A stretch of 43,660 nt of DNA from a virus: the IMG/VR virus record IMGVR_UViG_3300019884_000126, positions 1 to 43,660 of that record, one strand, 5' to 3'. A program made the position numbers and the translations under genes. Under the pieces are notes generated by a model. The model had not been told where the DNA came from. It saw only the letters and a list, made by a program, of their open reading frames with translations, and ran no database searches. This document shows, one piece after another, positions 161 to 40,395 of the stretch; the stretch's first letter is position 1; each line of letters opens with the position of its first letter.

Positions 161-512
161 ATCAAAACTCAAACAATTTTCACAAAATGAATTACTCATG
201 ATCAAAGAATCTCTAAAGTTTTTCCGAAAGATCTCGAACGACGAATCAATGATTCTTCAAACTTTTGGACTCACAAGTGAGCAATTCTTCATTATGAGTC
301 ATTCGATTTTTGATAAGATTTTTTGGAATATCGAATATCTCTCATCAAATGGATCAACTGTTTTAAATGAGTTAGATTCAAAAACTTTAGAAATTTCTCA
401 TTGGGAATCAAAACCACAATCTAATTACAAAAGAGAACCGACATTGATTGAGAAACTCCGTTTAATGTCAAAAACTGAGAGACTCAAGTATTGGGAGAAA
501 AATTCAAAATGA
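39..512 (+). CDS. hypothetical early protein, lysine-rich N-terminus
   Basis: A 157-residue protein I do not recognise. Residues 1-45 are a basic, low-complexity Asn/Lys/Ser/Glu segment that is probably disordered. Residues 45-100 look helical with aromatic positions, and the C-terminus is again basic. The start ATG follows AAAGGAA by seven bases. It is the first gene after the circle junction: the terminal repeat copy begins the same gene at 43539. The gene therefore follows 43238-43435 on the circular map and is probably in the early transcript from the promoter near 43140. Its stop overlaps the start of the next gene (ATGA), which suggests translational coupling. Confidence 0.75.
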   Translation: MPIIQNFDFSKNRPRNKKPKSQNLNLNENLKSKDEKSRNEKSKLKQFSQNELLMIKESLKFFRKISNDESMILQTFGLTSEQFFIMSHSIFDKIFWNIEYLSSNGSTVLNELDSKTLEISHWESKPQSNYKREPTLIEKLRLMSKTERLKYWEKNSK

Positions 513-1351
513 CTCAATCAAATCTCACTTCAAAAACTGAAAATGAAATCGAAGAAATCCCAATAATTCCATCAGAATGCTACATTACGAAAGATCATTC
601 ACTCTATTCAAAGATTGAAAATTTCCTAATCGGCGAATTACCAAATGCCTATCACGATATTCTCAAAGCGAGAATCTATAATGGGCAGGGATATCGAGAT
701 ATCAGAATATATCAATTAGTCGCTGATAAGTCATTTCTGTTTAAATTTCAGGAGACTCAGAAGTTTTTAAGTCCCGTTGAAATCTCAGTCTATTTGAGAG
801 AATTTCAAAATAGATCCATTCAGAATCTCCCGAAAGACAAATCTCATAAAGTAATAGGTTTGAATTTTATAACCGACTTGAATTGTGATACGCGATTAAT
901 TTCAACAGAAATTAAAGCTCATCTAACAGATGAGAAACTTGTTGAATTAGGTAATATTGGAATTCAGCAACAATCAGCAAAATTAATGTCTGAAAAGAGT
1001 TTCCAAGAACAGATGGAAGATCTGAAAATCATGGAAGCAATGGTTAATTTTGCCAGAGAACAAATTGGAAATCGGAAAGTTAGGGAACTCGATAAGATTA
1101 AAATCTCTCAGAATGAGAAATATGCACAAGAGAGACTTGATAAGGCGAATGGAATTAAAACCTCTAAATCTGGTAAAATACTCAAAGTTAAATCTCAAAC
1201 CAACTCAAATATCATCCAAAACCTAACTGCCAAATTTGGTTCATCAAAAGTTAACTATTGGACTAAAATCCTCAAACTAAATATTGAGAAAATTTCCATG
1301 GAAGAATTAGAACAGAGATCAAAACAGTTTGATCTAATTAATGAAATTTGA
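509..1351 (+). CDS. hypothetical protein, DNA-packaging-like or HTH-like, function unknown
   Basis: A 280-residue protein with no family I can name. I chose the ATG at 509 because it overlaps the previous stop (ATGA) and follows GGGAGAAA at 493-500. A TTG at 491 would add six residues. Residues 40-110 are compact and mixed, with an NAYHDILKARIYNGQGYRDIRI segment resembling helix-turn-helix 'repeat the cycle' regions of phage regulatory proteins. Residues 140-230 are strongly charged and probably coiled. The C-terminus is basic. Position between the first gene and the SNF2 helicase suggests an early role. The helix-turn-helix idea is only inference. Confidence 0.72.
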   Translation: MTQSNLTSKTENEIEEIPIIPSECYITKDHSLYSKIENFLIGELPNAYHDILKARIYNGQGYRDIRIYQLVADKSFLFKFQETQKFLSPVEISVYLREFQNRSIQNLPKDKSHKVIGLNFITDLNCDTRLISTEIKAHLTDEKLVELGNIGIQQQSAKLMSEKSFQEQMEDLKIMEAMVNFAREQIGNRKVRELDKIKISQNEKYAQERLDKANGIKTSKSGKILKVKSQTNSNIIQNLTAKFGSSKVNYWTKILKLNIEKISMEELEQRSKQFDLINEI

Positions 1352-1369
1352 AATCTCAAGTGAAATAAA

Positions 1370-3502: not shown

Positions 3503-3526
3503 CTCACGAAGTGAGAGAAACTTTCA

Positions 3527-3667
3527 ATGTACACTGAATTCCTATCAGCAATGATATTAAGTTTCATTGGGATATTCCTAGTATTCTCATTACTTACAGC
3601 GATTCTAGAAGGACTCTGCGATACTTTAGACTCAATTAAAAATTTATTTAGAAAAATAACGAAATGA
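3527..3667 (+). CDS. small membrane protein (46 aa)
   Basis: Short frame beginning MYTEFLSAM. Residues 6-30 form one strongly hydrophobic segment, followed by an acidic/basic tail ending IRKITK-like (FRKITK). Its stop overlaps the ATG of the next gene (ATGA at 3664-3667), and the next two genes are linked the same way. This is good support for a real translated gene despite its size. Function is unknown. It opens a group of membrane-anchored mini-proteins. Confidence 0.6.
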   Translation: MYTEFLSAMILSFIGIFLVFSLLTAILEGLCDTLDSIKNLFRKITK

Positions 3668-3750
3668 AAAACTTAATCGTAACACTCCCAATTATTTACG
3701 TAATGTTTAGAATTATTGATTCATTACTCGAAGGATCATTTTCAAAATGA
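3664..3750 (+). CDS. micro-membrane protein (28 aa)
   Basis: Starts MKNLIVTLPIIYVMF. It overlaps the upstream stop by four bases and its own stop overlaps the next ATG (ATGA at 3747-3750). One hydrophobic stretch (residues 4-17) precedes a short amphipathic tail. It may be a functional mini-protein, or a coupling cistron that carries ribosomes to the next gene. The overlaps on both sides are the main evidence. Confidence 0.5.
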   Translation: MKNLIVTLPIIYVMFRIIDSLLEGSFSK

Positions 3751-4022
3751 CCATTGAATTAAGAGACTTAGGAATAGTTACAGGGATTGGATTTGGATTA
3801 CTTACTTTTCAAACCACAGTAATTCTCTGGTCAGTTAATAGAGTTGAAAATTCTTTGAGAGAACTACTAAAATCCCAAATTAAAGGATTAGAAGATTTGA
3901 TGGATTCTAAAATTAAAAGATTAGAAGACCTTATAAATTCTAAAATTAATGGATTGGAAAATTTATTCAAATCAGAAATCAAGAGACTCGAAGATAAAAT
4001 TGAGACAAGGATACTAAAATAG
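3747..4022 (+). CDS. membrane-anchored coiled-coil protein with internal repeats (91 aa)
   Basis: Residues 8-31 form a transmembrane segment (GIVTGIGFGLLTFQTTVILW). Residues 32-91 are a charged coiled coil built of four copies of an 11-12-residue unit of the form K-S-x-I-K-x-L-E-D/N-L. The C-terminal end, KSEIKRLEDKIETRILK, is nearly the same as the end of the protein at 4244-4435, so the two are paralogues. The architecture suggests a membrane-tethered oligomer. Phage phi29 p16.7 has the same general plan and organises replication at the membrane, but no sequence relation is claimed. Confidence 0.72.
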   Translation: MTIELRDLGIVTGIGFGLLTFQTTVILWSVNRVENSLRELLKSQIKGLEDLMDSKIKRLEDLINSKINGLENLFKSEIKRLEDKIETRILK

Positions 4023-4217
4023 ATGACAACCTACAAATTCAAAATTCAAACCTACAATCTAAATGATCTCACAAGTTCAAAATATACGCCGTTTGCAACA
4101 ATTGAGTCATTTGAGAAAGGAGTCGTTTCAACAATCGTAAGTGCCTTAAATCAATTAGCAATTAAAAACGACGAAGGGATTCGATATGTATTCCTCGAAG
4201 ATAGGATACCAGCATGA
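4023..4217 (+). CDS. hypothetical small soluble protein (64 aa)
   Basis: The ATG follows the previous stop directly (TAG-ATG). The product begins MTTYKFKIQTYNL and has alternating strand-like and helical stretches (residues 30-48 helical) with no hydrophobic membrane segment. I do not recognise it. Its place between two related membrane coiled-coil genes suggests it belongs to the same translational unit. Confidence 0.62.
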   Translation: MTTYKFKIQTYNLNDLTSSKYTPFATIESFEKGVVSTIVSALNQLAIKNDEGIRYVFLEDRIPA

Positions 4218-4243
4218 AAATCCCAAATGAAAAGTAACTCACA

Positions 4244-4435
4244 ATGTCAAATGAACAATTGTACATTTTGTTAGGCGCACATGGATTCCAAATGTTAGTA
4301 ACTTTATGGCTAATAAACCATGTGGATAAATCTATAAATAAGAGAATTGATGATTTGAGAATAGCTTTAACAGATTTAATTAAGTCTGAAATTAAAAGAC
4401 TTGAAGATAAAATTGAAACTAAAATTTGGAAATAA
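4244..4435 (+). CDS. membrane-anchored coiled-coil protein, paralogue of the gene at 3747 (63 aa)
   Basis: Begins MSNEQLYILLG. Residues 6-26 are hydrophobic (one membrane span) and residues 28-63 are a charged coiled coil ending KSEIKRLEDKIETKIWK. This tail matches the C-terminus of the 3747-4022 product almost residue for residue. The MSNEQL start is shared with the product at 15827-16021. It therefore links the group of similar mini-proteins scattered in this arm. The ribosome-binding site is weak. Confidence 0.7.
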   Translation: MSNEQLYILLGAHGFQMLVTLWLINHVDKSINKRIDDLRIALTDLIKSEIKRLEDKIETKIWK

Positions 4436-4440
4436 AACAC

Positions 4441-5121
4441 ATGTCAAATTTAAACTCAAACCCAGATGAAAAGATCATTGAGAAAATTAAAAAACTCTTA
4501 GAGTTAACCACTTCAGATAATGAAAATGAGGCATCTCATGCAATGGAGACTGCAAAGAGATTGATGCTCAAATACTCACTCAATGAGACTAATTTCCTAG
4601 AAACTAACTCAGTACCGGAAATTATTGAGTCTCAGTATTCATCATCATATTTTCAAAAACCTGGTCTTAAAGAATCAATGCCACGCATTTTAGCAGTAAT
4701 TGCGCCAATATTTGGGTGTCAGGCGTTTGTTCGAGTAGATATTAGTGGATTCAAGAGTTATCATTTATTAGGATTCAAAACTAATATTGAAATTACAAAA
4801 TTCGCACTTGATTCACTACTCGCACAAGGAAACATTGATGCCCGCCGAGAATATCGAAAGTTTCGTACGGTAACTTTTGGTCTAAGTTTTTGGAGGGGAT
4901 TTGCCGACGGCCTCAAAGTGAAATTCGCTAAAGAAAAATCAAATGAAATTGGTTTGGAACTCTACGATAAGGTCAAAGAGAAATTAGATTCTATTACAAC
5001 GGGAACTATTGATACGGCAAAAGAGGATGGAGTGGCACGAGAATCAGGATTTCAAAGTGGAATCTCATCTCAAATAAGATCTGGTATTAATACATCTAAT
5101 TCAGGGAAACTATTAAACTGA
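4441..5121 (+). CDS. DUF2786-family protein
   Basis: A 226-residue protein from the ATG at 4441. An in-frame ATG at 4426 lies inside the previous gene, and GGAA at 4428 fits the later start. Residues 9-47 match the DUF2786 pattern: EKIIEKIKKLLELTTS then NEASHAMETAKRLMLKY. The rest (60-190) is a mixed domain of the kind that usually follows DUF2786 in phage and bacterial proteins, here with GFKTNIEITKFALDSL and a charged helix. The biochemical role of the family is not known. It ends in TGATG with the next gene. Confidence 0.85.
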   Translation: MSNLNSNPDEKIIEKIKKLLELTTSDNENEASHAMETAKRLMLKYSLNETNFLETNSVPEIIESQYSSSYFQKPGLKESMPRILAVIAPIFGCQAFVRVDISGFKSYHLLGFKTNIEITKFALDSLLAQGNIDARREYRKFRTVTFGLSFWRGFADGLKVKFAKEKSNEIGLELYDKVKEKLDSITTGTIDTAKEDGVARESGFQSGISSQIRSGINTSNSGKLLN

Positions 5122-5369
5122 TGACTATGAACATCTTACAACAATACATTGAAAGTCTACATGAAGCACTTCTCAGTAAAAATGATGAAAAACTGAAAGT
5201 TCACATGAGAAAATGGCAAATTAAAATTCCTGAATCTGATGAAATATTCCAAATAATGAAACATAAATCCATAACTGCCAGAGTAGATTTACCAGAAGAA
5301 ATGAGACGAGAGAGTAAAAAATGGCTTTTTGAAAGAAAATATGAATCATTTGATGATGGAGATGTTTAA
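5121..5369 (+). CDS. hypothetical protein (82 aa)
   Basis: Starts at an ATG sharing one base with the upstream stop (TGATG), so translation is probably coupled. The product is mostly helical and charged, with EEMRRESKKW near the end and an acidic DDGDV tail. It has no membrane segment and no cysteines. I do not recognise it. Confidence 0.62.
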   Translation: MTMNILQQYIESLHEALLSKNDEKLKVHMRKWQIKIPESDEIFQIMKHKSITARVDLPEEMRRESKKWLFERKYESFDDGDV

Positions 5370-5371
5370 AA

Positions 5372-5545
5372 ATGACCTACAGAATCGGCAAAGATTCTCC
5401 TTCTGAAAAGAGTAATGAGCTACCATTCATTAAATGTCTAATCTGTTTGAAGAAATCCTACTACCAAAAAGACATTGAGAATAAGTATTGTGGATTTTGT
5501 CATAAGTTTCATCAAGATTTAAATCAAGGAGAATCTCAGACGTGA
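5372..5545 (+). CDS. zinc-ribbon mini-protein (57 aa)
   Basis: Two CxxC pairs, KCLIC (about 21-25) and YCGFC (about 39-43), followed by HKFH, give a classic zinc-ribbon spacing. It starts two bases after the previous stop and its stop overlaps the GTG start of the next gene (GTGA at 5542-5545). Similar small zinc ribbons occur at 6992 and 11102. They probably act in nucleic-acid or protein binding, but no specific role can be read. Confidence 0.68.
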   Translation: MTYRIGKDSPSEKSNELPFIKCLICLKKSYYQKDIENKYCGFCHKFHQDLNQGESQT

Positions 5546-5814
5546 ATTTCAAAATTGACAACGAAGTTCTCATTGATTTTATCGAAAAGTTTGAATTAGA
5601 TGCGACAAGCGATTTCAAGAAGTCAAAGAATCTAAGTGAATTGCTAATTCAAACTAAAATCCTCAATCCACGAATCGCAATTTGGTTGGAAATGGGAATT
5701 AATGAGTTTCAAATATGTCCACATTTTGGACTGGGATTCATGTTTGCACTCAAATTAATGGCACTTCAAATTGAGAAAGATTCACTCATTCCGAGAGAGA
5801 ATCAAACAAATTAA
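5542..5814 (+). CDS. hypothetical protein with GTG start (90 aa)
   Basis: The GTG at 5542 overlaps the previous stop (GTGA). An AAGGAGAATC sequence about 12 bases upstream could serve as the ribosome-binding site. The product is helical, with ICPHFGLGFMFALKLMALQIEK near the C-terminus (residues 57-79), a mildly hydrophobic amphipathic stretch. I recognise no domain. It directly precedes the PD-(D/E)XK nuclease gene. Confidence 0.62.
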   Translation: MNFKIDNEVLIDFIEKFELDATSDFKKSKNLSELLIQTKILNPRIAIWLEMGINEFQICPHFGLGFMFALKLMALQIEKDSLIPRENQTN

Positions 5815-5819
5815 CTCAA

Positions 5820-6716
5820 ATGATAAACGAATCTCAATTCAAAATTCAAAATCAACTTAAATCTCATGAAGTGAAAGGTTTCAAAAAACGAACCAAACTA
5901 ACATTAATTCTCAATTCACATTCACTAAGTTACTACCAGAAATGCGAGAAACTCTATGAGTATACGACGATTAGAAACTTGGAACAAATTGAAGAAATTT
6001 ATCCGTTTACTCGGGGTTCTCTCATAAGCAAAATCTTAGAGTTATGGTATCGGGCGAAGAAACTCTCATACAGTAAAGAGAGACTCGAAGATCTCGAATT
6101 TAAACTCTATAAGATAGTTTTTAGATCAAAATCACTTAAAGAGGATGACCGAACATTAATAAGTGCCAGATTACAGGAGTACTTTGAGAAATATCGACTC
6201 GAGACTTACAAAGTGATTGCCGTCGAAAAAGGCTTCAGTAAAATACTGTACGAAGATGACTATGTTTTGTACATTTATGAGGGTAAGCCAGATTTAGTGG
6301 TCGATTTTGGACCTAATCTAGGAATTGGACCCATTGATCACAAATCAGAATCGAGAAGGAATGATATTTATCCATTCAATAATCAAATACTCGGTTATTG
6401 TTGGTCAATGGATTCAAAGATCGGCATGTATAACTACATTGGACTTCAAAATGATGACCAGAATGGAAAAGTTCTACGGCGAGAGACACTCACATTCTCA
6501 GAAAATCAAATTAATCAGTGGCGAGATGATACAATTCAGTGGTTTCATCGGATCTTACGATCATTAAACTCAAAAAATTATCTAAGATCATGGAATTGTC
6601 AGGGAGTTTATGGAGTTTGTTCATTCAGTAAGGTTTGCGAAATGCCGACTGAAAATGGTAAACTAGTTAAAATTAAGAACCTATTTAAAGAACGGGAGCC
6701 TTATAGATCGTGGTAA
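5820..6716 (+). CDS. PD-(D/E)XK nuclease, RecB/Cas4-like, with probable Fe-S cluster
   Basis: A 298-residue protein. The nuclease core shows E136 (VEKGF), GKPD with D158, then PIDHKS with D173 and K175, and the Q189-x3-Y193 helix typical of RecB-family nucleases. C42 near the N-terminus (YQKCEKLY) pairs with C260, C267 and C273 near the C-terminus (NC...GVC...KVC). This is the split layout of a 4Fe-4S cluster as in AddB and Cas4, although the spacing C-x6-C-x5-C differs from the usual C-x2-C. An exonuclease acting in replication or recombination is expected, together with the P-loop ATPase at 8138 and the DUF669 protein at 10122. No Cas genes are nearby. Confidence 0.88.
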   Translation: MINESQFKIQNQLKSHEVKGFKKRTKLTLILNSHSLSYYQKCEKLYEYTTIRNLEQIEEIYPFTRGSLISKILELWYRAKKLSYSKERLEDLEFKLYKIVFRSKSLKEDDRTLISARLQEYFEKYRLETYKVIAVEKGFSKILYEDDYVLYIYEGKPDLVVDFGPNLGIGPIDHKSESRRNDIYPFNNQILGYCWSMDSKIGMYNYIGLQNDDQNGKVLRRETLTFSENQINQWRDDTIQWFHRILRSLNSKNYLRSWNCQGVYGVCSFSKVCEMPTENGKLVKIKNLFKEREPYRSW

Positions 6717-6871
6717 GTTTATTACAAGCTACAGTAAGTTTCACAATAGAATCAGATAAAGCTACTGAAGAAATTCAAAAATTTCTCGAATGGTATATTA
6801 ATGAAGCCTGTTCAAAACTTGAAGATGTTGGAATGGATGTAACCTACAATTTAAATGTGAAAGAGCTTTGA
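6710..6871 (+). CDS. hypothetical small protein, GTG start (53 aa)
   Basis: Frame begins at GTG 6710, overlapping the end of the nuclease gene by seven bases, with GGGAG about 12 bases upstream. The product is acidic and helical (SDKATEEIQKFLEWY) and ends NLNVKEL. It has no membrane segment. The overlap and the otherwise unfilled 270 bases support it, but the start is not certain. Confidence 0.45.
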   Translation: MVSLLQATVSFTIESDKATEEIQKFLEWYINEACSKLEDVGMDVTYNLNVKEL

Positions 6872-6873
6872 AA

Positions 6874-6987
6874 ATGACTAATGACACACTAACAATTCTC
6901 GGAGCTAATACACTTTACACAATAATATTGATGATTTATATCAATTTAAAGATTAAATCAATCTCTGAGATTAAAAAGATTGAGTAA
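6874..6987 (+). CDS. micro-membrane protein (37 aa)
   Basis: Starts MTNDTLTILGANTLY. Residues 8-25 are hydrophobic, then a short lysine/glutamate helix follows (IKSISEIKKIE). This is the shortest member of the membrane-plus-charged-helix pattern seen at 3747, 4244, 7900, 9000 and 15827. It lies in a compact run with its neighbours (2-4 base gaps). Confidence 0.55.
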   Translation: MTNDTLTILGANTLYTIILMIYINLKIKSISEIKKIE

Positions 6988-6991
6988 ATAG

Positions 6992-7321
6992 ATGCCAGTC
7001 TTAGACCATCTCCACACATACGAACGGATAAAAGATAGGCCAGAATATTTTAAATGTATTCATCCTCTCTGTTATCACTTCATTCATAAAGATCTCTTAG
7101 AACTTAAAAAAGCGATGTGCCGTTGCGGAGATTCATTCATTTTAAATCGAGAGGAGTTAAAAAAGAAATCACCGAAATGTTCCAATTGCATTAAAACAAG
7201 AAATCGCAAATCAAATTCATCTCTGAGAACAGAAGAAATCGCAGGAGTTATCGAAGATCTAATTGCTGAAACGCCATCATCTACGGCGAAAGATGAAAAT
7301 GATAAATCTTATGAGCTTTGA
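6992..7321 (+). CDS. zinc-binding protein (109 aa)
   Basis: The cysteine and histidine clusters are CIHPLCYHF (about 22-30), MCRCG (about 42-46) and KCSNC (about 62-66). They are consistent with one or two zinc sites. The basic stretch KTRNRKSNSS and an acidic C-terminal tail follow. I cannot assign a family. It is the second of three small zinc proteins in the early arm, which makes roles in DNA or RNA polymerase binding plausible but unproven. Confidence 0.68.
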   Translation: MPVLDHLHTYERIKDRPEYFKCIHPLCYHFIHKDLLELKKAMCRCGDSFILNREELKKKSPKCSNCIKTRNRKSNSSLRTEEIAGVIEDLIAETPSSTAKDENDKSYEL

Positions 7322-7344
7322 TAAATCTAATTAAGGAAAATTAA

Positions 7345-7653
7345 ATGGAAAATGAAACAACATTTTTGGTCAATGGAATAGTCTCAAGTAGAGATAAACA
7401 ACCTTATCTGCAATTATCAAATGCAGATAGAATGATAGCACAATTAACAATGTCACAAGCGAGACAAATAGCCCAAGATATATTAATAATGTGCAGTCGT
7501 ACAGAAGCTGATGCAATGGTTATGGAATTTTTCAGTAATTTAGCCACAGATAAAGATGAAGCACTTCAATTAAGTGCAGTTTTTATGCAGAAATTCCGAG
7601 ATTATCGAGCAAATTTAGATGATGAACAAATTAAACATAATCATCGAGGTTAA
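7345..7653 (+). CDS. conserved-type phage hypothetical protein (102 aa)
   Basis: Has a good ribosome-binding site (AAGGAAA, seven bases before ATG). The sequence runs GIVSSRDKQPYLQL, then LTMSQARQIAQDIL and CSRTEADAMVMEFF, a helix pattern I have seen in many phage proteins of unknown function that lie near replication genes. It has no membrane segment. The TAAAACAT motif sits just downstream of its stop, at 7657. Confidence 0.7.
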   Translation: MENETTFLVNGIVSSRDKQPYLQLSNADRMIAQLTMSQARQIAQDILIMCSRTEADAMVMEFFSNLATDKDEALQLSAVFMQKFRDYRANLDDEQIKHNHRG

Positions 7654-7686
7654 AATTAAAACATAATTAAAGGAATTATTAAAATC

Positions 7687-7899
7687 ATGAACAAACGAAT
7701 GTACAATCTCGAAATTAACAATCAAGTATTTGAAATTGCCTACACAGATGACCAAATGAGATCATTTGTCAATCAATTCAAAAGATACATTGAATTGGAA
7801 ACTGGAAAAACTGATAATGCAGTAGGAACTCACACTGAATCAGTTGATGATGCACCAGATGATCAGGGTCATACAGGATTTAAGGGAAATCTTAAATAA
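7687..7899 (+). CDS. hypothetical small acidic protein (70 aa)
   Basis: Preceded by AAAGGAAT. The N-terminal half looks structured (MYNLEINNQVFEIAYTDDQM), and the C-terminal half is acidic and disordered (SVDDAPDDQGHTG). It ends directly against the ATG of the next gene. It is not recognised. Confidence 0.62.
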   Translation: MNKRMYNLEINNQVFEIAYTDDQMRSFVNQFKRYIELETGKTDNAVGTHTESVDDAPDDQGHTGFKGNLK

Positions 7900-8136
7900 A
7901 TGTTTGAAAATGACTGGACAAAAATCTCAGTAATAGTTATCAGTTTTGCAGTTGGAGCTTATTTCAACAACAAAAGAATCGATGATTTCAAAGATTCCAC
8001 GAATAAAAGATTTGAAGATCTTTACAAATATTTAGAAATCAGATTCAAACATATTGATGACGATATGAAATTAATGAGAGATGATCTTAAAGAACTTAAA
8101 ACTGACATGAAAGAATTACTTAAAGTAAAAAACTAA
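7900..8136 (+). CDS. membrane-anchored coiled-coil protein (78 aa)
   Basis: Residues 7-23 form a single transmembrane segment (ISVIVISFAVGAYF). Residues 25-78 are a highly charged coiled coil (RIDDFKDSTNKRFEDL..., ending LKTDMKELLKVKN). Start and stop are fused to the neighbours (TAA-ATG upstream, one-base gap downstream). It shares its plan, not close sequence, with 3747-4022, 4244-4435, 9000-9200 and 15827-16021. It lies immediately before the Sak4-like ATPase, so membrane tethering of a replication or recombination complex is one hypothesis. Confidence 0.7.
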   Translation: MFENDWTKISVIVISFAVGAYFNNKRIDDFKDSTNKRFEDLYKYLEIRFKHIDDDMKLMRDDLKELKTDMKELLKVKN

Positions 8137-8137
8137 A

Positions 8138-8998
8138 ATGCCAACTCTAAATGACCTAAAACCCACTGAGAATTTTGTTTCACTCGTAGTCGGAAAGCCA
8201 GGATCAGGGAAAACTTCGGCAATTGCGAGTTTCACATCTAAGGATTCACCAACTTACATATTTGACATAGATCACCGAATTAAAGGTTTGGAGGGATCTC
8301 GTGAATGGCTTGGTCAAGATGTTTGGGATAATTTAACATTTGACCAGTATGACACTAGAGACGGCTTTCGATCTATTGAGAAACAGTTTATGGTATTCGC
8401 GGAAAAGTATGACAAAAGAAATCTCGAATTCAAAAATCTTGTAATTGAATCTGTTGGATCATTGAGTGAAATGTTTCTCGTCGATTCACAAACAATGAAG
8501 GGATTAAAACCTGGAACTGATTTTTCAAAGTTAAAAGGTGATCAAACGAGAGGTGCCCGAATTGTCGGGAATATTAGTTTCCCCACGCCAGATGATTATA
8601 ATTATGGCAAACGGGCGTTTCATATTTTGTTCTACCATTATTTTACACACTTCACAAAGTGTAATATATTTTTAAGTGGTTGGACGGCGGATAGATGGAT
8701 TAAAGATCCTAACGCAGAGTCAGTATATGCTCCCCAGATTGTTAGTGGAACTCAATTACTAGCTACTAACAAGATTGCAAGTGAATTGCCTGGGTATTTC
8801 GACCACATTTGGGAATTTGATAAGGAGGAAACGGGATCGGCAAAGAATCCACTGAAATACAGAGTTAAATTTAGAAGTGGAATGGCTAAAACAACTATGC
8901 CACAGATTCCAAACGAAATAGACATAACAGGCAAGAATTTCAAACACGAGTTGTTTCAGTATTTACCACAAGAGATTAAATCTCAGAAGACGGCCTAA
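8138..8998 (+). CDS. P-loop ATPase of the phage Sak4/AAA_24 type (recombination)
   Basis: A 286-residue protein with Walker A GKPGSGKTS (residues 19-27). A Walker-B-like FKNLVIESVGSLSE stands about residues 103-116, and a RecA-core layout follows. Phage proteins of this size, in a block with a RecB-like exonuclease and a DUF669 SSB-like protein, are usually Sak4-type single-strand annealing or RecA-related recombinases. The acid residue at the end of the Walker B strand is E rather than D. There is a good start (single base after the previous stop). ATP-dependent ssDNA binding is inferred from family, not shown here. Confidence 0.85.
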   Translation: MPTLNDLKPTENFVSLVVGKPGSGKTSAIASFTSKDSPTYIFDIDHRIKGLEGSREWLGQDVWDNLTFDQYDTRDGFRSIEKQFMVFAEKYDKRNLEFKNLVIESVGSLSEMFLVDSQTMKGLKPGTDFSKLKGDQTRGARIVGNISFPTPDDYNYGKRAFHILFYHYFTHFTKCNIFLSGWTADRWIKDPNAESVYAPQIVSGTQLLATNKIASELPGYFDHIWEFDKEETGSAKNPLKYRVKFRSGMAKTTMPQIPNEIDITGKNFKHELFQYLPQEIKSQKTA

Positions 8999-8999
8999 G

Positions 9000-9200
9000 A
9001 TGATACCATCTAATGAAGCTTTACAAACATTCTATGGGACAATACCACTAATCATCGTCATTCTTGGAATCTTTTTAAGAAGTCAAATACTTCAAAAAGA
9101 TATTCTACACAGATTGGGGAAAATCGAAGACAAATTAACCAAAATTACTGAACGACTAATAATTCTTGAAAGTAGATTTGGGATAGTCTATAAAGATTAG
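9000..9200 (+). CDS. membrane-anchored coiled-coil protein (66 aa)
   Basis: A membrane segment (residues 13-29: GTIPLIIVILGIFL) is followed by a coiled coil (RLGKIEDKLTKITERLIILESRFG). Such Rz/spanin-like or membrane-tether proteins are common in phages. It starts one base after the upstream stop. It belongs to the same architectural group as the other small membrane coiled-coil proteins in this arm. Confidence 0.68.
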   Translation: MIPSNEALQTFYGTIPLIIVILGIFLRSQILQKDILHRLGKIEDKLTKITERLIILESRFGIVYKD

Positions 9201-9219
9201 ACAATTAAGGAGAATTAAG

Positions 9220-9546
9220 ATGAACTTTGAAATAATCTCAATGACCGAGAAAAGACGAGATATGTTACTTCAGATGAATGAAAGTGATTCTGAGAATGAA
9301 TCTGATGAACTGATTACAGTTTTGAAAGATCAAGATTTTGACGATTCTGAAGACTCTGAGAATGAAGATTCTGATGAAATAGATTTAGAGGATGAATTAG
9401 AGGAGGATGAAACTGAAGATGACTCTGAGGATGAATTAGAAGATGAAATAGAGATAATTGATGAAACTGATGAGAATGAGACTGACTCTGATGAAAATGA
9501 GGATGAGATCGAAATTACAGACGAAGAAACTGAAGAAACTACTTAA
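9220..9546 (+). CDS. extremely acidic protein (108 aa), possible DNA mimic
   Basis: Excellent ribosome-binding site (AAGGAG). After a mixed start (MNFEIISMTEKRRDML), residues 22-108 consist almost wholly of Asp, Glu, Ser, Asn and Thr, in repeats such as EDSEDELEDE. The coding DNA is a low-complexity GATGAA/ACTGAT array. Charge alone fits either a DNA-mimic inhibitor (like T7 Ocr) or an acidic tail protein that modulates an SSB. No fold is visible, so both are guesses. The HNH endonuclease gene follows. Confidence 0.72.
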   Translation: MNFEIISMTEKRRDMLLQMNESDSENESDELITVLKDQDFDDSEDSENEDSDEIDLEDELEEDETEDDSEDELEDEIEIIDETDENETDSDENEDEIEITDEETEETT

Positions 9547-9619
9547 AGAATCTGAAGAGATACTTGAATCTATTAAAAGATTAGAGATCAAGGTTAATGA
9601 AAACTCTCACAATTTATGA
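9497..9619 (+). CDS. possible overlapping basic coiled-coil mini-ORF (40 aa)
   Basis: This frame overlaps the end of the acidic gene and the start of the HNH gene. It reads MRMRSKLQTKKLKK followed by LLKESEEILESIKRLEIKV, a heptad-like helix. It fills the 50-base gap that would otherwise be non-coding, and the acidic gene's GAT/GAA repeats can explain part of its composition. It may be an artefact of low-complexity DNA. No ribosome-binding site is clear. Confidence 0.25.
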   Translation: MRMRSKLQTKKLKKLLKESEEILESIKRLEIKVNENSHNL

Positions 9620-10121
9620 TAAATCTATCTTTTGGTGGCAAAATCTTTTAATTGACGACGAAGATTTTGAAAAAGTTTCGAAAGTAAGTAAATCCATACG
9701 TAAAGATTCTGGAGGGCGCAAATCACTCCGGATTTATACCAATGGAAGCTCTATAAGTCTAACTAATTTTATTCTAAATTTAGATAAAAGTGTATTAATA
9801 GATCATAAAGATCGTAATCAATTTAATAACCAAAAATCTAATCTTAGGATATGTAATAGCCAACAAAATAATTTCAACAAAGGTCCAATTACTGGACAAT
9901 ACAAAGGAGTAAGTTATAACAAAGAAAATAGTAAGTGGAAAGCCCAGATAATGAAAACACATAAGAATTATCACATAGGTTACTTCAACACCGAAATTGA
10001 AGCCGCGAAAGCATACGATAAAAAAGCAAAGAAACTATTTGGTGAATTTGCCTATCTAAACTTTCCAGAAACAAATAACTCTCAAAAACACGAAACTCTA
10101 ATTAAAAAGGAACAGAATTAA
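9597..10121 (+). CDS. HNH endonuclease with AP2 DNA-binding domain (free-standing homing-type)
   Basis: A 174-residue protein. Residues about 65-95 form an HNH core (LIDHKDRNQFNNQKSNLR then N), and residues about 101-158 an AP2-type domain (GQYKGVSYNKENSKWKAQI ... IGYFNTEIEAAKAYDKKAKK). This pair is typical of phage homing endonucleases, which cut a target next to their own gene and spread by repair. AAGG lies seven bases before the ATG. It sits between the acidic gene and the DUF669 gene. There is no sign of an intron or broken host gene around it. The first histidine of the HNH site reads D-H rather than H-H. Confidence 0.9.
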   Translation: MKTLTIYDKSIFWWQNLLIDDEDFEKVSKVSKSIRKDSGGRKSLRIYTNGSSISLTNFILNLDKSVLIDHKDRNQFNNQKSNLRICNSQQNNFNKGPITGQYKGVSYNKENSKWKAQIMKTHKNYHIGYFNTEIEAAKAYDKKAKKLFGEFAYLNFPETNNSQKHETLIKKEQN

Positions 10122-10547
10122 ATGCCGATCATTAGTTTGACACAGGAAGCGATAGATAGGGGAAAGTTCCCAGAAATTGGCTGGAGTCATGCAGATCTGC
10201 ATGCAGTCCGAGAGGCAAAAAGTGCCAAAGGAGATTCAACCAATTTCTTCTTTGAATTTATTATGACCTCTGGACCAGAATCAAAGAATGACAATAAGGG
10301 GAGATACCAGACCTTTTTAGTTAATTCTTTGGCAATCTCAAATGGAATTAAAGATGTCATTACGAGCTTTAAAGCCATGATTGCAGCATTGATGGGGATC
10401 AAACCCAATGATGTTCAGGCGGATGATTTTGATACTGATAAATTAGTTGGTAAGTCGTGCTGGATTAAAATTGATGTAGTTACAATTGAAGGTAAATTAA
10501 TCTACACGATTACTGATTTCTCAGCCGATCAAGATATTCCATTCTAG
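10122..10547 (+). CDS. DUF669-type protein, probable single-stranded DNA-binding protein
   Basis: A 141-residue protein with the DUF669 pattern: GWSHADLHAVREAKSAKGDSTNFFFEFIM at the start, SFKAMIAALMGI in the middle and GKSCWIKIDVV...ITDFS at the end. Proteins of this type are found beside Sak4-like ATPases and RecB-like nucleases in phages and are proposed to act as SSBs. The C-terminus ends IPF after DQD, an acidic-hydrophobic tail as in SSB partners. It directly follows the HNH gene (stop-ATG contact). Confidence 0.8.
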   Translation: MPIISLTQEAIDRGKFPEIGWSHADLHAVREAKSAKGDSTNFFFEFIMTSGPESKNDNKGRYQTFLVNSLAISNGIKDVITSFKAMIAALMGIKPNDVQADDFDTDKLVGKSCWIKIDVVTIEGKLIYTITDFSADQDIPF

Positions 10548-10601
10548 ATTTTGGTGAGTAGTTAACTTTTGCTAAGTAGTTATCGCATGTAACTTGGGGT
10601 T

Positions 10602-11105
10602 ATGGGGTCAGATCTTAAAATCTTAACCGAGATGAGAGAAATGGCCCCATTAAATGTGGAATCTAATAAAGATGGAGATAAAATGACCGAGGATGACAGA
10701 ATTAAAGCTGAAAGATTTGAAACTGAGGTACTTAAAATCAAACATTCATTAAGTGACAGATTACCGTGGCCTCTTTCTGTGAGAATTGTGTTACTAGCTC
10801 ATCTAAAATTCATTAAATACCATAATTCACTAGATTGGAGCTTCAGAAACACCGCCAAATTACTCAATAAACCAGATTCTCAAATCAAAACAGCAATAGA
10901 AATGGCAAAGATGTTAGAAACTTATCCAGATTTAGCTAAAATTACAAACAAAAGGAGAGCATGGAGAATTCTCAAGATGTTCCAGTACCTGCCGTCAGAT
11001 AATTTGCGTTTGAAAATTGCTCAGGAGATTCAAAATCAACTAGTTAAAGAACGTCGGTCGACATATGATGAATTAGCTGGAAATTTAGGTGAGATGACGT
11101 TATGA
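10602..11105 (+). CDS. helix-turn-helix protein, ParB-like region (167 aa, start uncertain)
   Basis: Residues about 85-150 show the DWSFRNTAKLLNKPDSQIK...AKMLETYPDLAKI pattern of ParB/RepB-type helix-turn-helix regions (W-x-x-x-x-T-A-x-x-L-x-x-x...). This suggests sequence-specific DNA binding, perhaps to an origin or operator. The first ATG (10602) lacks a clear ribosome-binding site. An in-frame ATG at 10683 has GGAG six bases upstream and would give 140 residues, still with the whole helix-turn-helix. The gene follows a 54-base gap that carries AGTAGTTA repeats. Its stop overlaps the next start (ATGA). Confidence 0.72.
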   Translation: MGSDLKILTEMREMAPLNVESNKDGDKMTEDDRIKAERFETEVLKIKHSLSDRLPWPLSVRIVLLAHLKFIKYHNSLDWSFRNTAKLLNKPDSQIKTAIEMAKMLETYPDLAKITNKRRAWRILKMFQYLPSDNLRLKIAQEIQNQLVKERRSTYDELAGNLGEMTL

Positions 11106-11263
11106 GATACCATTGCTATGGATGTAATAAATCGGTAACAAGTGAATTACCAGAAGATTCAGTAATTCGTGCATTACTATTATGTCCAGAATGTATCGAA
11201 TTAATTCCTGAGAAAGGTTTCGATTATGTAATTTCACAAAAACGGATACCTAAATATGAGTGA
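11102..11263 (+). CDS. zinc-ribbon mini-protein (53 aa)
   Basis: Starts MRYHCYGCNKS (CxxC, residues 5-8), with the second pair LLLCPECIEL (28-31). A basic tail follows (SQKRIPKYE). It overlaps its upstream neighbour by four bases and the polymerase gene by eight bases, which strongly supports its being translated. The third small zinc ribbon of the early arm, placed directly before the DNA polymerase. Confidence 0.7.
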   Translation: MRYHCYGCNKSVTSELPEDSVIRALLLCPECIELIPEKGFDYVISQKRIPKYE

Positions 11264-13709
11264 AATTCTCATCGAAGAAACTAAGGTTCAAATAAATGGT
11301 TGGGGTCCAGAAGTATCGCCGTTAATGTTAGTATCGGATTACCCTGGACCAGATGAGATTAAATTTGGAAAGGCATTAGTTGGATCTCATGGTAATACAA
11401 TTGGCGATTTCCTACGTCTCTCGGGTTATAGTTTAAACGGCTGCTACAAGACCAACTTCATTAAGTATCCAATGAATGGTTATGGGTCTAAGAATCGTAA
11501 GAAAGCCCAAGGAATCTTAGATTATGTCAAGTCTCAAGGAAACTGGACTGAAATCCTCAAACAAGAGATCAAAGATATTCAACCAAACGTCATACTCGCA
11601 TTTGGGGAATTAGCATTACGTGCGTTAACTGTCGAAAAGAATATTAATAATTTCCGGGGATCAATTTTACCAATTTCCAAAGAAATTTCAGATCGAAATA
11701 TTAGAGTCATTCCCACATTTCATCCAAGAGATATAGTTCTCAACCCACTAAGTTCAGTTTATTTGAAAACCGACTATGATAAGGCTCTCAAATATTTAAA
11801 TGACACATCTGAATACAAAGAACCTGGTAACTTATGGATTTGTAAAACTACAGACGCACTTATTGAGTATTGGAAACGGGCAAAACATGGTCCGTTTCTC
11901 GTGTTTGACATTGAAACTTGGTACAATTTTGTCACTTGTATTAGTTTTTGTACGGATGGAAATGAATCGGTTTCAGTTTCATTGCTCGATAAAGACACTT
12001 CAATCATGGAGAAAGTTTGCCTTTGGAAACAAGTCAATGAGATCTTACGATCGCCGATTCCAAAAGTCAATCAAAATATAGGCTACGATGAAACAATTCT
12101 CAGAATGAAATATGGGGTCGAGGTACGAAATATCATTGGCGATACAATGTTAATGGCCCATACACTTTATTGTGAATTACCGAAAGGACTTAATTTCCTA
12201 ACCTCACTTTATACAGATATTCCCTATTACAAAGATGAGGGCCGTGAATATAATCCAAAGATTCATGATTTCAGTCGAATGCTCTATTACAATGCAAAAG
12301 ATTCATTAGCAACTCATAAAGTTTGGACGGCACAATTAAAAGACTGCGAAGAACTCGGTTTAACTAATTTCTACAACGAAAAAGTTATGCCGTTGTATTT
12401 TCATTATCAAAAAATCAATCGAAGGGGGATTACAGTTGATACTTTGGTTAAATATGATCTCATTGACAAATATACTAATCTATTAACTGAATCACAGAAA
12501 AAGATTGATGATCTTTACGGCCAGAATCTCAACATTAACTCACCAAAACAGGTTGCAGAATTTGTATATGATTTTTTGAAATGCCCGTTACATACCCATA
12601 CGAATAATTCCGGCGAATTGATACCTTCAACTGGTGAAGAAGTCATTCAAGAAATATATTTAAATGAGATAACAGATGAAACTCGCCGGGATATTCTCCA
12701 GGAGATACTTTTCTGTAGGAAACTAGATAAAGTTATTGAGTTTTTAAATACACCGTACCATTACGATGGGAAATTTCGTAGTTCATACAATCTCGCAGGA
12801 ACTGAAAATGGCCGTACTTCTGGATCGGCATCAATTGGATGGTTTTTTAAATTGAGTGGGAAAGCAATTAAAGTCGGTCGGTTAGGGGCATCTCTCCAAA
12901 CAATCCCAAAACATGGATTTATTCACAAAAATCAAAGATACGGAAATGACATACGAAACATATTTGTTCCATCATCCGGTAAGATATTTTTTGATGCAGA
13001 TGGATCAAATGCCGAGGGACATATTGTAGCAGTTTTATGTGAAGATTGGGAAATGTTGGAATACATGAAAGCGGGAGGTGATATTCATAAGTTAACGGCA
13101 TCTTGGATTTATAATCAACCCGTTGAGACAATTGTTAAGCCATCTGATGAACGAGATATTGGTAAAATGGCGAGACATGCAGGAAATCTTGGACAATCTC
13201 CAAGTGGACTCTCCATTCAAATCAATAAACCAATCAGTTTTACTCGAACTGTCATGGAGAGATTCCATAAAAATGCTCCAAAAGTCCAAGAAGTTTTCCA
13301 TTACGAGATAACAAATCGAATAAAAGGTTATCGGGCAAATAGATTTCTAATGTCACCTCATGGACGAAGGAGAGATTTCTTTGGACGGGTAGATGATCAT
13401 ATGCTCAAAGAAGCCTTTTCATTTATTCCACAGTCAACATGTTCAGATCATTATAAATTTGCCTCACTCAAAATATCAAATCAAACAGAACACTTTGGTG
13501 CTGAGCAACTTTTTGAAGCTCATGACGGACTAATGTGGGAAATTCCCTATTCGAGATTAAATGAATTTGCCCAAATAGTGAAAACTGAGATGACCCAACC
13601 GATTAATTTCAAAGATTGTACACTAAGTAGGGATTACAATCTCACAATTCCAGTTGAATTAGGTTATAGTGACACAAACTGGAAAGAAATGAAAGATTTT
13701 CAGATTTAG
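11256..13709 (+). CDS. family A DNA polymerase with N-terminal uracil-DNA-glycosylase-like domain
   Basis: An 817-residue replicative polymerase. Residues about 20-165 look like the UDG superfamily: SDYPGPDE (27-34), GKALVGSHG (38-46), TNFIKYP (about 65-71), ILAFGELALRAL and THP-like FHPRD (H156). The 3'-5' exonuclease has D218-I-E220, D278 and Y345-x3-D349. The polymerase has motif A (D582 in DADGSNAEG), motif B (R633, K637, H641, then L645-G646) and motif C (H756-D757-G758). So the exonuclease set is complete, while the fingers tyrosine of motif B (Taq Y671 position) is Leu and the motif C HDE is HDG. UDG-like fusion to family A polymerases is known in some phages (SPO1 type). Confidence 0.93.
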   Translation: MSEILIEETKVQINGWGPEVSPLMLVSDYPGPDEIKFGKALVGSHGNTIGDFLRLSGYSLNGCYKTNFIKYPMNGYGSKNRKKAQGILDYVKSQGNWTEILKQEIKDIQPNVILAFGELALRALTVEKNINNFRGSILPISKEISDRNIRVIPTFHPRDIVLNPLSSVYLKTDYDKALKYLNDTSEYKEPGNLWICKTTDALIEYWKRAKHGPFLVFDIETWYNFVTCISFCTDGNESVSVSLLDKDTSIMEKVCLWKQVNEILRSPIPKVNQNIGYDETILRMKYGVEVRNIIGDTMLMAHTLYCELPKGLNFLTSLYTDIPYYKDEGREYNPKIHDFSRMLYYNAKDSLATHKVWTAQLKDCEELGLTNFYNEKVMPLYFHYQKINRRGITVDTLVKYDLIDKYTNLLTESQKKIDDLYGQNLNINSPKQVAEFVYDFLKCPLHTHTNNSGELIPSTGEEVIQEIYLNEITDETRRDILQEILFCRKLDKVIEFLNTPYHYDGKFRSSYNLAGTENGRTSGSASIGWFFKLSGKAIKVGRLGASLQTIPKHGFIHKNQRYGNDIRNIFVPSSGKIFFDADGSNAEGHIVAVLCEDWEMLEYMKAGGDIHKLTASWIYNQPVETIVKPSDERDIGKMARHAGNLGQSPSGLSIQINKPISFTRTVMERFHKNAPKVQEVFHYEITNRIKGYRANRFLMSPHGRRRDFFGRVDDHMLKEAFSFIPQSTCSDHYKFASLKISNQTEHFGAEQLFEAHDGLMWEIPYSRLNEFAQIVKTEMTQPINFKDCTLSRDYNLTIPVELGYSDTNWKEMKDFQI

Positions 13710-13759
13710 TGGTTTAAGTAAGTAGTTAAATTAGTTAGTTAAATTGAAACGGAGAAACC

Positions 13760-14245
13760 TTGAAACTAGCATCAAAAAAGAAGTGGAAAATTGAAGATTC
13801 TCAGATTAGAGAATTAATTTCGATTAGAGATGAGAGGAAATTAAATCAAATGACGCTTTATAAACGAATTGGTCAATTAATTGGTCGTTCAATTAAACAT
13901 CTTAGAAATTTAAATAAGAACGAAGCATCAAAGGTCATTGAGAATTATCGAAATAATCAGGAGTCTCAAATTAATCAACAGAAGATAATCTCCAAATTTT
14001 CACCTCAGATCTCAAAGGATGAAATCAGGCCGTCTCACGAACAACCCGATGAAACATCAAATGAAGTTAAAAGTGAATCACCTGAGAATGTGGAATCGGC
14101 CGAAAATGAGTCTCAACGAGATATTCATTTAGTGAAACCTGAAGTTAAATCAGAAATTGAAACTCCAAAGAAACTAACCTGGCAAGAAATAGTTGAACGG
14201 CAGAGACTTGAGAAACTAGCTAAGGAAAATCAAAAGAATGCTTAA
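13760..14245 (+). CDS. hypothetical charged protein with TTG start (161 aa)
   Basis: The start is TTG at 13760, with GGAG five bases upstream at 13751-13754. The product begins MKLASKKKWKIED. Residues 1-55 look like a compact helical domain (MTLYKRIGQLIGRSIKHLRNLNK) that could bind nucleic acid. Residues 55-130 are acidic, Ser/Glu-rich and probably disordered, and the end is a charged helix (KKLTWQEIVERQRLEKLAKE). I recognise no family. It overlaps the next gene by eight bases. The upstream gap repeats AAGTAGTTAA. Confidence 0.65.
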   Translation: MKLASKKKWKIEDSQIRELISIRDERKLNQMTLYKRIGQLIGRSIKHLRNLNKNEASKVIENYRNNQESQINQQKIISKFSPQISKDEIRPSHEQPDETSNEVKSESPENVESAENESQRDIHLVKPEVKSEIETPKKLTWQEIVERQRLEKLAKENQKNA

Positions 14246-14474
14246 ATTAAGTGTTGAACAAACCAGAGAAGAAATTAGAATGATTGAGACACATATCTCG
14301 AAACTGTCGGATCTTGACATAGTTGAGATTCAAAAAGGTCAATTAAGCCGATTAGTTTATTTCGCCAAGAGATCTGTTACATCAAATCTAAGTAAATCAA
14401 AATCCCACATAACTCTCACAAATTCTCATGATCATGGACCTCCTGGTCCTCCTGATTATTCTCCCGTTGAGTAA
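14238..14474 (+). CDS. hypothetical protein with proline-rich tail (78 aa)
   Basis: Overlaps the previous gene by eight bases. Residues 1-35 form a charged helix (VEQTREEIRMIETHISKLSDLD). The C-terminus is SHDHGPPGPPDYSPVE, a Gly-Pro-Pro tail. Unknown function. The 100 bases downstream before 14580 contain a short dyad (AGCAT...ATGCT near 14540) and no clear promoter. Confidence 0.6.
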   Translation: MLKLSVEQTREEIRMIETHISKLSDLDIVEIQKGQLSRLVYFAKRSVTSNLSKSKSHITLTNSHDHGPPGPPDYSPVE

Positions 14475-14579
14475 TTGTCTACATTAAAATTTAATTAAAT
14501 CACCTATGCACGGAGTGTCTTTAAAATTATTTAGAATTACAGCATTCTAATATGCTAAAAACTTTGAAAGATATTCAAG

Positions 14580-15800
14580 ATGTTTAATTTCATTGAAGAA
14601 TACCTAAGATTAACTGAAGATCTTGAAACTCCGACAAGTTATCTCAAATGGGGCGCAATAAGTTGTATTGGGGCAGCACTCAGAGATAATTTTTACTTTA
14701 AATTTCCAGCAAGACAAGAGAAAATCTATCCAAATACTTACATCTTGTTACTGGGAGATACGTCTGCTGTTAGAAAATCAAATCCATTAAATGTAACTAG
14801 AAAACTTCTTAAAAAATTAGACAATACAAAAGTTGTTGCAGGAGCAGCATCCATGCAAGGCATTTTAAAAGAGTTAGGAAGTACTATGAACGGCAAACCA
14901 AAAGGGGGATCTGGGATAATGTTAGCTAAAGAGTTAGAAGCATACTTTGTCAAAGATCCCGCCACTATAGGTATTTTAACCGATCTTTATGATTTTCATG
15001 AAATTTACGAGAAAATACTATCAACCCAAGATACTATAATAATACGAAATGTCTGTTTAAGTTTATTTGGCGGATCAAATGAAATTATGATGCGAAAGTT
15101 AATTGATCAGTCTGCCGTCGAGGGGGGATTAGTTGGGAGAATGTTAATTATTGAGGAAGTTGAAAGACGTAAAAACAACTCTGGGTTTGAAGATAATCAA
15201 ATAATAATTACAGACGAACACTGGGAACCTTGTTCAAAATTTCTGAATCGACTCAAAACCTTTACCAATGTTGAACTTAAATTCACTGAAAATGCCAGGA
15301 AACATTACAATGAGTGGTATCATTCGCTGCCGGAATTACAGAAACGAGTTAAAACAGGCACCGGATTTGAATATCGACTCCATACTCATGTTTTGAAAGT
15401 TGCTACCATTTTGGCGGCATCCATTGAAAACTTCGTGGGAACTATTGAACTTGAGTTTCTTGAATCGGCGATTCTTGAATGCGGCAAGCTAATTCCAACG
15501 TATCAGAAATTAACATTAGGTTCAGGTTCCCATCAAGATTCTCCGGCGATGGGACATGTTGTACTTGGAATAGTTAATTCCCCAAATCATGAAATTTCCC
15601 ATCGTGATCTACTGTACAAACTTTTTGGAATTTGTGATACTGAAATGCTAAATCGAATTATTACGACATTAGAGCAGGCAGAATTAATTAAACAGAAATC
15701 CGTTAGAATGATTCCTGGTTACAAAGCAACTGATAAATTAGTTGAGAAAGTTTTGTACAAAAATCAAGAGAATGACAAGTCCAAGTGGACGGTGAATTAG
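14580..15800 (+). CDS. DUF3987-family protein, helicase/primase-associated ATPase
   Basis: A 406-residue protein of the DUF3987 (YfjI-like) type. Phages often use these as replicative helicase or primase partners. Residues 20-30 read YLKWGAISCIGAALRDNFYF. The P-loop equivalent is GDTSAVRKS (59-67), where the Walker glycines are partly lost. Then comes GGSGIMLAKELEAYF (about 110-125), LSLFGGSNEIMM and the GLVGRMLIIEE segment. The C-terminal part is a winged-helix-like region (HEISHRDLLYKLFG...LEQAELIKQK). No DnaB-type helicase or separate primase is visible, so this is the best candidate for loading or driving the fork. Confidence 0.82.
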   Translation: MFNFIEEYLRLTEDLETPTSYLKWGAISCIGAALRDNFYFKFPARQEKIYPNTYILLLGDTSAVRKSNPLNVTRKLLKKLDNTKVVAGAASMQGILKELGSTMNGKPKGGSGIMLAKELEAYFVKDPATIGILTDLYDFHEIYEKILSTQDTIIIRNVCLSLFGGSNEIMMRKLIDQSAVEGGLVGRMLIIEEVERRKNNSGFEDNQIIITDEHWEPCSKFLNRLKTFTNVELKFTENARKHYNEWYHSLPELQKRVKTGTGFEYRLHTHVLKVATILAASIENFVGTIELEFLESAILECGKLIPTYQKLTLGSGSHQDSPAMGHVVLGIVNSPNHEISHRDLLYKLFGICDTEMLNRIITTLEQAELIKQKSVRMIPGYKATDKLVEKVLYKNQENDKSKWTVN

Positions 15801-15826
15801 CGCGGATGCGCTTAGGGAATTAAGAG

Positions 15827-16021
15827 ATGTCAAACGAACAATTATTTTTAAGTTTACTAGGAACTCAGATAACAATCTCTGCACTGTTTGCAGGTTTTCT
15901 CAAATACTACATTGACGCTAAAATAGATCCAATTGCAAAACAAATGGACATACTCACAAAATTTATCATTGAACATTCTGAACGAATTGCAACTCTCGAA
16001 GAAAAAACTAAGAAACTATAA
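15827..16021 (+). CDS. membrane-anchored coiled-coil protein (64 aa)
   Basis: Begins MSNEQLFLSLLG, the same opening as the 4244-4435 product. A membrane segment (residues 8-28) precedes a coiled coil (PIAKQMDILTKFIIEHSERIATLEEK). It is therefore another member of the membrane coiled-coil group, about 11 kb away from the first pair. A five-base hairpin (AGCGC/GCGCT at 15799-15812) separates it from the DUF3987 gene. Confidence 0.7.
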   Translation: MSNEQLFLSLLGTQITISALFAGFLKYYIDAKIDPIAKQMDILTKFIIEHSERIATLEEKTKKL

Positions 16022-16027
16022 CTCACG

Positions 16028-16234
16028 ATGAAGTCATTGGAAAGATATGGAGATATGAGAACCCAACTTGAGATTGTGAGAACTAAAATAACCCCTAGTT
16101 CATGGGATATATTTCTTTATCAAAATTACATAATTGCTGAATCAATTGAAGATGATGTCACGAGATTTAATATCTTAGACAAGATTGTTCAATTACGAAA
16201 GGATGATTACAAATTAACTATGGAGATTCCCTAA
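16028..16234 (+). CDS. hypothetical protein, last gene of the early arm (68 aa)
   Basis: Product begins MKSLERYGDMRTQLEIVRTK. Helical and charged, with SSWDIFLYQNYIIAESIEDDV in the middle and no membrane segment. It ends two bases before the tail-to-tail stop of the late arm, so the two transcription units converge here. Function unknown. Confidence 0.62.
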   Translation: MKSLERYGDMRTQLEIVRTKITPSSWDIFLYQNYIIAESIEDDVTRFNILDKIVQLRKDDYKLTMEIP

Positions 16235-40387: not shown

Positions 40388-40395
40388 TTATGAGA

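Follow-up and report, generated by a model that had tools for sequence, protein, structure and literature searches.

Do the small membrane proteins scattered through the replication arm of a phage genome form one gene family and, if so, is replication what they serve? The question is raised by a 43.66-kb virus record of IMG/VR, analysed here at its full length (43,660 nucleotides) and called the window, in which a plus-strand arm (39-16234) encodes a SNF2-type helicase, a PD-(D/E)XK-type exonuclease, a Sak4-like ATPase, an HNH endonuclease, a DNA polymerase and a DUF3987-like primase, and the minus strand carries the structural genes (terminase, portal, capsid). An earlier note, based on the sequence alone, had listed eight small open reading frames (ORFs) of this arm as proteins with a membrane segment followed by a charged coiled coil, had taken at least some of them for paralogues, and had proposed either a membrane scaffold for replication or several immunity or exclusion factors. 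Sequence comparison indicates that the ORFs starting at 3747, 4244 and 7900 belong to one family, to which 15827 probably and 9000 possibly also belong. The family, new to the libraries searched, appears to have spread horizontally among unrelated phages, and is more likely a host-directed mobile accessory than a part of the replication machine.

All eight ORFs are present on the plus strand where the earlier note had placed them, in tightly packed slots, often overlapping or abutting in the operon. Membrane and coil assignments were made by hydropathy and COILS alone, with a COILS matrix checked on GCN4 only. A single N-terminal membrane segment was detected in each ORF, the weakest in 7900 (mean hydropathy 1.28), and is followed by a charged helix in five of them: 3747 (3747-4022, 91 residues), 4244 (4244-4435, 63 residues), 7900 (7900-8136, 78 residues), 9000 (9000-9200, 66 residues) and 15827 (15827-16021, 64 residues). 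COILS probabilities are 1.00 for 7900, 0.99 for 3747, 0.39 for 9000, 0.09 for 15827 and 0.01 for 4244, whose helix has a period nearer to 11/3 than to 7/2. The original description holds for the membrane segment of all eight and the charged helix of five, but COILS values are low in 4244 and 15827, and the post-membrane tails of the other three are too short for a coil. These three, none of which was placed in the family, are 3527 (3527-3667, 46 residues, hydrophobic, with one membrane segment), 3664 (3664-3750, 28 residues, hydrophobic, with a 7-residue tail and a 4-base overlap with each neighbour) and 6868 (6868-6987, a short hydrophobic ORF of 39 residues from a TTG, or starting at an ATG at 6874).

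Family members are 55-105 residues long, with post-membrane tails of 35-64 residues, and their coil length changes in steps of 11 residues. In 3747 the membrane segment (residues ~10-27, predicted with the N-terminus outside, N-out) is followed by a 64-residue tail of 11-residue repeats of the LEDLINSKIKR type, the unit being encoded by a 33-bp tandem repeat (3877-3964, plus strand; 2.7 copies, TRF score 113), from which the hendecad periodicity of the protein (3.667) derives. The repeat has a wide hydrophobic face, resembling a membrane-surface helix. Two F-type members from different phages are 85% identical, one being longer by exactly 33 residues (3 x 11); the two phages have similar tail genes, as judged by eye, so this pair may have descended vertically. 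Lysine and arginine hardly occur before the membrane segment, and mostly 2-5 follow it (18 proteins checked); an N-out, C-in topology is thus predicted for the family, and the coil is expected in the cytoplasm. A juxtamembrane N.RI.D motif is invariant in six phage proteins of the A-type, to which 7900 belongs (NNKRIDDFK). Structure prediction had been suggested by the earlier note as a check; AlphaFold2 models 7900 as one continuous helix (residues 5-77, predicted local distance difference test score 85), with no DNA-binding domain.

The claimed near-identity of two C-termini was found in 3747 and 4244, in which 15 of the last 17 residues are identical (74% at the DNA level, over 68 nt); the pair scores z 7.6 against segment-preserving shuffles. 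The MSNEQL start common to 4244 (MSNEQLY) and 15827 (MSNEQLF) is likewise present; it recurs in variants in members from other phages (MSNHQLY, MTDIQLY, MNEHQYY), and is explained by this C-type start pattern. Relationships extend to other genomes. Compared with two paralogues of L007, the IMG/VR locus nearest to the window by its polymerase, 7900 reaches z 9.4 (L007 10488-10697) and 4.3, the L007 pair scoring 12.8 with each other, and its N-terminal 42 residues alone give z ~14 with members of L007 and of L172, an unrelated, temperate-looking phage. The profiles of four types (A, B, C, 3747/4244) cross-match, as shown by the matches of the B profile to L172 8463 (E 5.9e-11) and of the 3747/4244 profile to L172 8007-8219 (E 2e-8).

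Membership was evaluated by leave-one-out profile tests over 2,715 small ORFs, 15827 and 9000 never being included in the profile, and by shuffle tests (n=1000) in which segment composition and hydrophobic pattern were preserved. Most members were recovered with E values from 1e-16 to 1e-5, the weak ones being 3747, the F-type of G030 and L007 3787. 7900 was recovered at E 3.5e-5, a score reached by 3/1000 shuffles; for 4244, tested on a profile deprived of both 3747 and 4244, no shuffle reached the score (0/1000), and 3747 is marginal when compared with outsiders (25/1000). 15827 was the top non-member in most leave-one-out runs, with a full-profile E value of 1.2e-4 and 0/1000 shuffles, and is probably a C-type member; 9000, the second-best non-member, is marginal (E 0.025; 36/1000). 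3527 is not convincing (E 0.19; 18/1000), and 6868 was ruled out, its score being equalled by 577/1000 shuffles. The paralogous set thus comprises four or five genes, not eight. All close pairs tested are under purifying selection (pN/pS 0.19-0.56). Among the 1,486 small ORFs of 84 control loci, 13 satisfy membrane-plus-coil criteria, and the majority of these are not related to the family. The window, with 3 of its 44 small ORFs, and L007, with 4 of 23, both exceed this density (Fisher p 0.01 and 9e-5, respectively). A conserved small membrane protein of a sub-lineage, with a charged tail and a sequence of the type MEVTLxAFFTFTLLL..., is found in L028 (7376-7573), L024, L020 and L034, and is not a family member.

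The absence of homologues outside this genome had been named as an outcome contrary to the proposal; they were found in many phages and in one acidobacterial chromosome. About ten other IMG/VR records hold homologues, many of which records may be fragments, with genes called by a simple script outside annotated records. L172, reached by an IMG/VR scan with A-type proteins and devoid of a polymerase homologue, carries members of three subtypes side by side (A at 8007, B at 8227, C at 8463). Scans with B and A types led to L175, L177, L207 and L208-L212, and scans with other close pairs to L225 and L226; the L175 record holds a second member. A profile run on nine records matched four ORFs of the window and, with good scores, four of L007, as well as three in L172, two in L175 and eight in the record of L207 (G474); G030 holds two copies and the remaining records one to three. 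G474, with ~8 copies, is a 96-kb tailed phage, judging from tape-measure, terminase-like, portal-like and capsid-like ORFs read from sequence, and B and C types are adjacent in it as they are in L172. The remark that no described phage system has this many such proteins was fair, but is surpassed by this phage, the window holding only 4-5. The acidobacterial genome contains three dispersed A-like copies; their neighbours, named from sequence, include rpsO-pnp-like genes and a gene resembling those of protein kinases. A B-type profile gave two weak matches only in 247 Acidobacteriota genomes.

When members were compared by tblastn with 50,697 phage records, no relative was found, and no named family of Pfam, PHROGs, NCBIfam or PADLOC covers these proteins. 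Many members weakly match PHROG 1009, of unknown function (E 0.0025 to 0.6), a profile that may reflect either distant homology or the general features of membrane coils. A PDB search returned generic coils only, p16.7 being absent among the 60 matches listed.

The genomic location of the members was compared among phages with related polymerases. Metagenomic and cultured phages have polymerase relatives at ~25% identity, in a layout like that of the window; in IMG/VR, where the window polymerase or primase gave no matches as single-protein queries, relatives were reached only with a four-sequence alignment, which yielded 80 polymerase loci, the nearest being L007 (51%). Profile members occur in only two of 85 polymerase-bearing loci (L003-L087), L007 and L029, some loci being fragments. 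Replication genes follow a collinear order in the window and L007, but the family members occupy different gaps. In the window 3747 and 4244 are located between the helicase gene and a phrog_421 gene, 7900 and 9000 immediately 5' and 3' of the Sak4-like ATPase gene (8138-8998, plus strand; phrog_124, E 1.4e-15), and 15827 after the primase, as penultimate gene of the arm. In L007, 686 follows the phrog_421 gene, 3787 precedes Sak4, and 7652 and 10488 flank the polymerase; the one copy of L029 lies between the exonuclease and Sak4-like genes. Elsewhere the surroundings are structural. In the P22-like L208 and L212, the member is the sole plus-strand gene between portal and scaffold, opposite to its surroundings; since these two genes overlap by 4 bases in a P22-like relative, Rhodoferax phage P26218, the member has been inserted between adjacent genes. 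In L175 a member lies beside the tape-measure gene on the strand opposite to the tail genes, and in L172 members lie beside convergent tail genes, again on the opposite strand.

These distributions bear on the proposal that the coils form a scaffold for phage DNA replication, at which DNA would be brought together with helicase, ATPase and polymerase on the inner membrane. Published precedent exists in the membrane anchorage of p1 and p16.7, which have a membrane role in phi29 replication (PMC4974454), and the predicted cytoplasmic coil would suit such a function, as would the position of every window copy among replication and recombination genes and the similar sites in L007 and L029. A required scaffold is hard to reconcile, however, with the absence of members from 83 of the 85 polymerase-bearing loci, with slots that are not kept although the replication genes are collinear, and with the copies located away from replication genes, in the structural regions of L172, L175 and L208 or in a bacterial chromosome; in addition, a p16.7-like DNA-binding domain is lacking, 7900 being predicted as a single helix. 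The scaffold proposed by the earlier note was not borne out in this form, and is considered unlikely. A comparably low probability is assigned to a holin-like or lysis-timing function, in which an N-out helix and an amphipathic cytoplasmic helix would thin or open the membrane, as proposed for BhlA/TpeE, several copies tuning the timing. Architecture and predicted topology agree with those proteins (PMC9527704), the hydrophobic face of the 3747 repeat is of the kind expected at a membrane surface, no lysis gene was identified in the protein scans, and 7900 has a match in PHROG 10340, 'holin/anti-holin' (E 1.1e-5), though through the coil only. This function is at odds with the presence of four to five copies in an early arm, and with acidobacterial copies that adjoin housekeeping genes; Pfam searched up to E 10 gave no BhlA match, and members have neither the aromatic membrane helix nor the RE motif that is strictly conserved in TpeE homologues, which are reported from Firmicutes only (PMC9527704).

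Two further explanations have less in their favour. Small membrane-coiled-coil proteins could be unrelated and alike through composition, as suggested by coils that weakly match many libraries and PDB coils, and by the scores of 9000 and of left-out 3747, near the shuffle background. The invariant N.RI.D motif, the z score of the 7900 N-terminus, the 85% identical pair differing by exactly 33 residues, and purifying selection in close pairs all argue against this improbable explanation, which the sequence comparisons already contradict for 7900, 4244 and 3747; it may still apply to 9000 and 3527. That the proteins are inner-membrane spanins of the Rz type is very improbable: L007 7652 weakly matches the Rz-like PHROG 739 (E 0.001), but the positive charges after the membrane segment predict a topology opposite to N-in, C-out, the copies are several, and no outer-membrane partner was seen.

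The comparisons establish homology, purifying selection and spread of the family, and a host-directed accessory is preferred because the family moves between unrelated phages and sits in an acidobacterial chromosome. In the reading tentatively adopted here, whose chances are judged somewhat short of even, 3747, 4244 and 7900, along with 15827 (probably) and 9000 (possibly), represent a horizontally spread membrane coiled-coil family with an accessory takeover or exclusion role, outside the replisome core. That they are dispensable to the replication module follows from their presence in two of 85 loci and from the different slots in a collinear arm. Members would oligomerise at the inner membrane via the coil, and the oligomers would tether or sequester host or competitor proteins; since cellular paralogues are present, phage members may perhaps mix with the coiled coils of the host. 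Expressed from the early arm, they would act as takeover or superinfection-exclusion factors, and several would be carried at once if each subtype had its own partner. The immunity or exclusion factors of the earlier note are closer to this reading, unproven as they are. Several observations weigh against it. None of the members is known to confer exclusion or takeover, the function being derived from position and spread; the window members are co-directional with the replication genes and not on the opposite strand; a sigma-70-like consensus scan upstream of the L208 gene found no promoter, although this consensus may not be that of the host; no match to PADLOC defence models was accepted, the best of ten members reaching E 0.004 through the coil only. 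Some control loci are fragments, so that absence there is no proof, and strong matches in only 1 of 396 Acidobacteriota genomes and 0 of 398 from Pseudomonadota give no support to a wide host family.

A bolder version, to which we give only a small chance, is that A-, B-, C- and F-types make up one modular system, in which subtype-specific coils, varying in steps of 11 residues, would join in mixed inner-membrane oligomers, sets of 2-8 being present in unrelated phages and in certain bacteria, and phage copies would capture or poison host or rival assemblies. This would be an undescribed arena of phage-host and phage-phage competition. If exclusion or takeover is their role, the proteins would likewise form a class of phage-host interaction factors that is new and easy to test, with the 11-residue coil step as a simple evolvable part. 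Odd tiny ORFs of one phage have become a traceable multi-copy gene family, of a kind of small membrane protein that usually goes unannotated.

Other features of the window and its relatives were recorded. The polymerase used as query lies at 11256-13709 (plus strand; phrog_17, E 1.5e-75). One of its relatives, 41% identical, is encoded by L087, a contig of 42.6 kb that was assigned to a bacterial metagenome-assembled genome (isolate nzgw467). Genomes sampled from that phylum are small (~0.5-2 Mb); the phage therefore either infects a bacterium of this type or was placed in the wrong bin. Family matches in this phylum, mostly to the coil alone, were discarded as generic. A 108-residue protein (9220-9546, plus strand), encoded after the Sak4-like region and before the HNH gene, is extremely acidic, D/E-rich throughout, and could be a DNA mimic or the partner of a DNA-binding protein; short acidic ORFs near Sak4 are also found in L029 (7670-7918) and L017 (5144-5296). 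The HNH endonuclease gene (9597-10121, plus strand) lies downstream of the Sak4-like gene and before the 10122 gene; its homologues occupy different places in the L007 record (13123-13584 and a site close to the opposite end), as would fit a homing endonuclease. On the minus strand, a 62-residue protein with two membrane segments (36477-36665) adjoins the terminase gene and is a holin candidate, a similar 59-residue protein lying beside a terminase-like gene in the L007 record, and a tail-spike-like protein (26583-28589) has a K1-lyase C-terminal domain (E 7e-13), which suggests a polysaccharide receptor. The region 39800-43200, with few genes and many repeats (TTAGAAT five times at 40396-40431, and others), may contain an origin or control region. 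An RNA-family search gave no matches.

Among known systems, PspB, of ~74 residues, has an N-terminal membrane helix and a cytoplasmic coil; L007 7652 matches its NCBIfam model weakly (E 0.002; 18.4 bits against a curated cut-off of 51.7), and no psp context was seen. Rz-like i-spanins share the N-terminal membrane helix and coiled coil, but require the coil in the periplasm (N-in, C-out), opposite to the topology predicted for the family. p16.7 of phi29 is a small early phage protein with a membrane anchor, a cytoplasmic coiled coil and a C-terminal DNA-binding dimer domain. Family members resemble it and p1 as small phage proteins with one N-terminal membrane helix and a predicted cytoplasmic C-terminus; they differ in having short tails in place of the DNA-binding domain and several paralogues, are not kept with the replication module, occur also in a bacterial chromosome, and showed no sequence match to either protein. 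The BhlA/TpeE/UviB holins (TCDB 1.E.27), of ~8 kDa, combine a short N-terminal membrane helix, predicted N-out, with a charged amphipathic C-terminal helix (PMC9527704); the family shares this arrangement, but it occurs in multiple copies, its A-types carry N.RI.D instead of the RE motif, there is no Pfam BhlA match, and no holin activity is known for its members. Although the window copies run with the replication genes, and an own promoter was not found in the L208 scan, the family also resembles morons and superinfection-exclusion membrane proteins, such as P22 SieA, in consisting of membrane proteins which, in some phages, are inserted on the opposite strand among structural genes.

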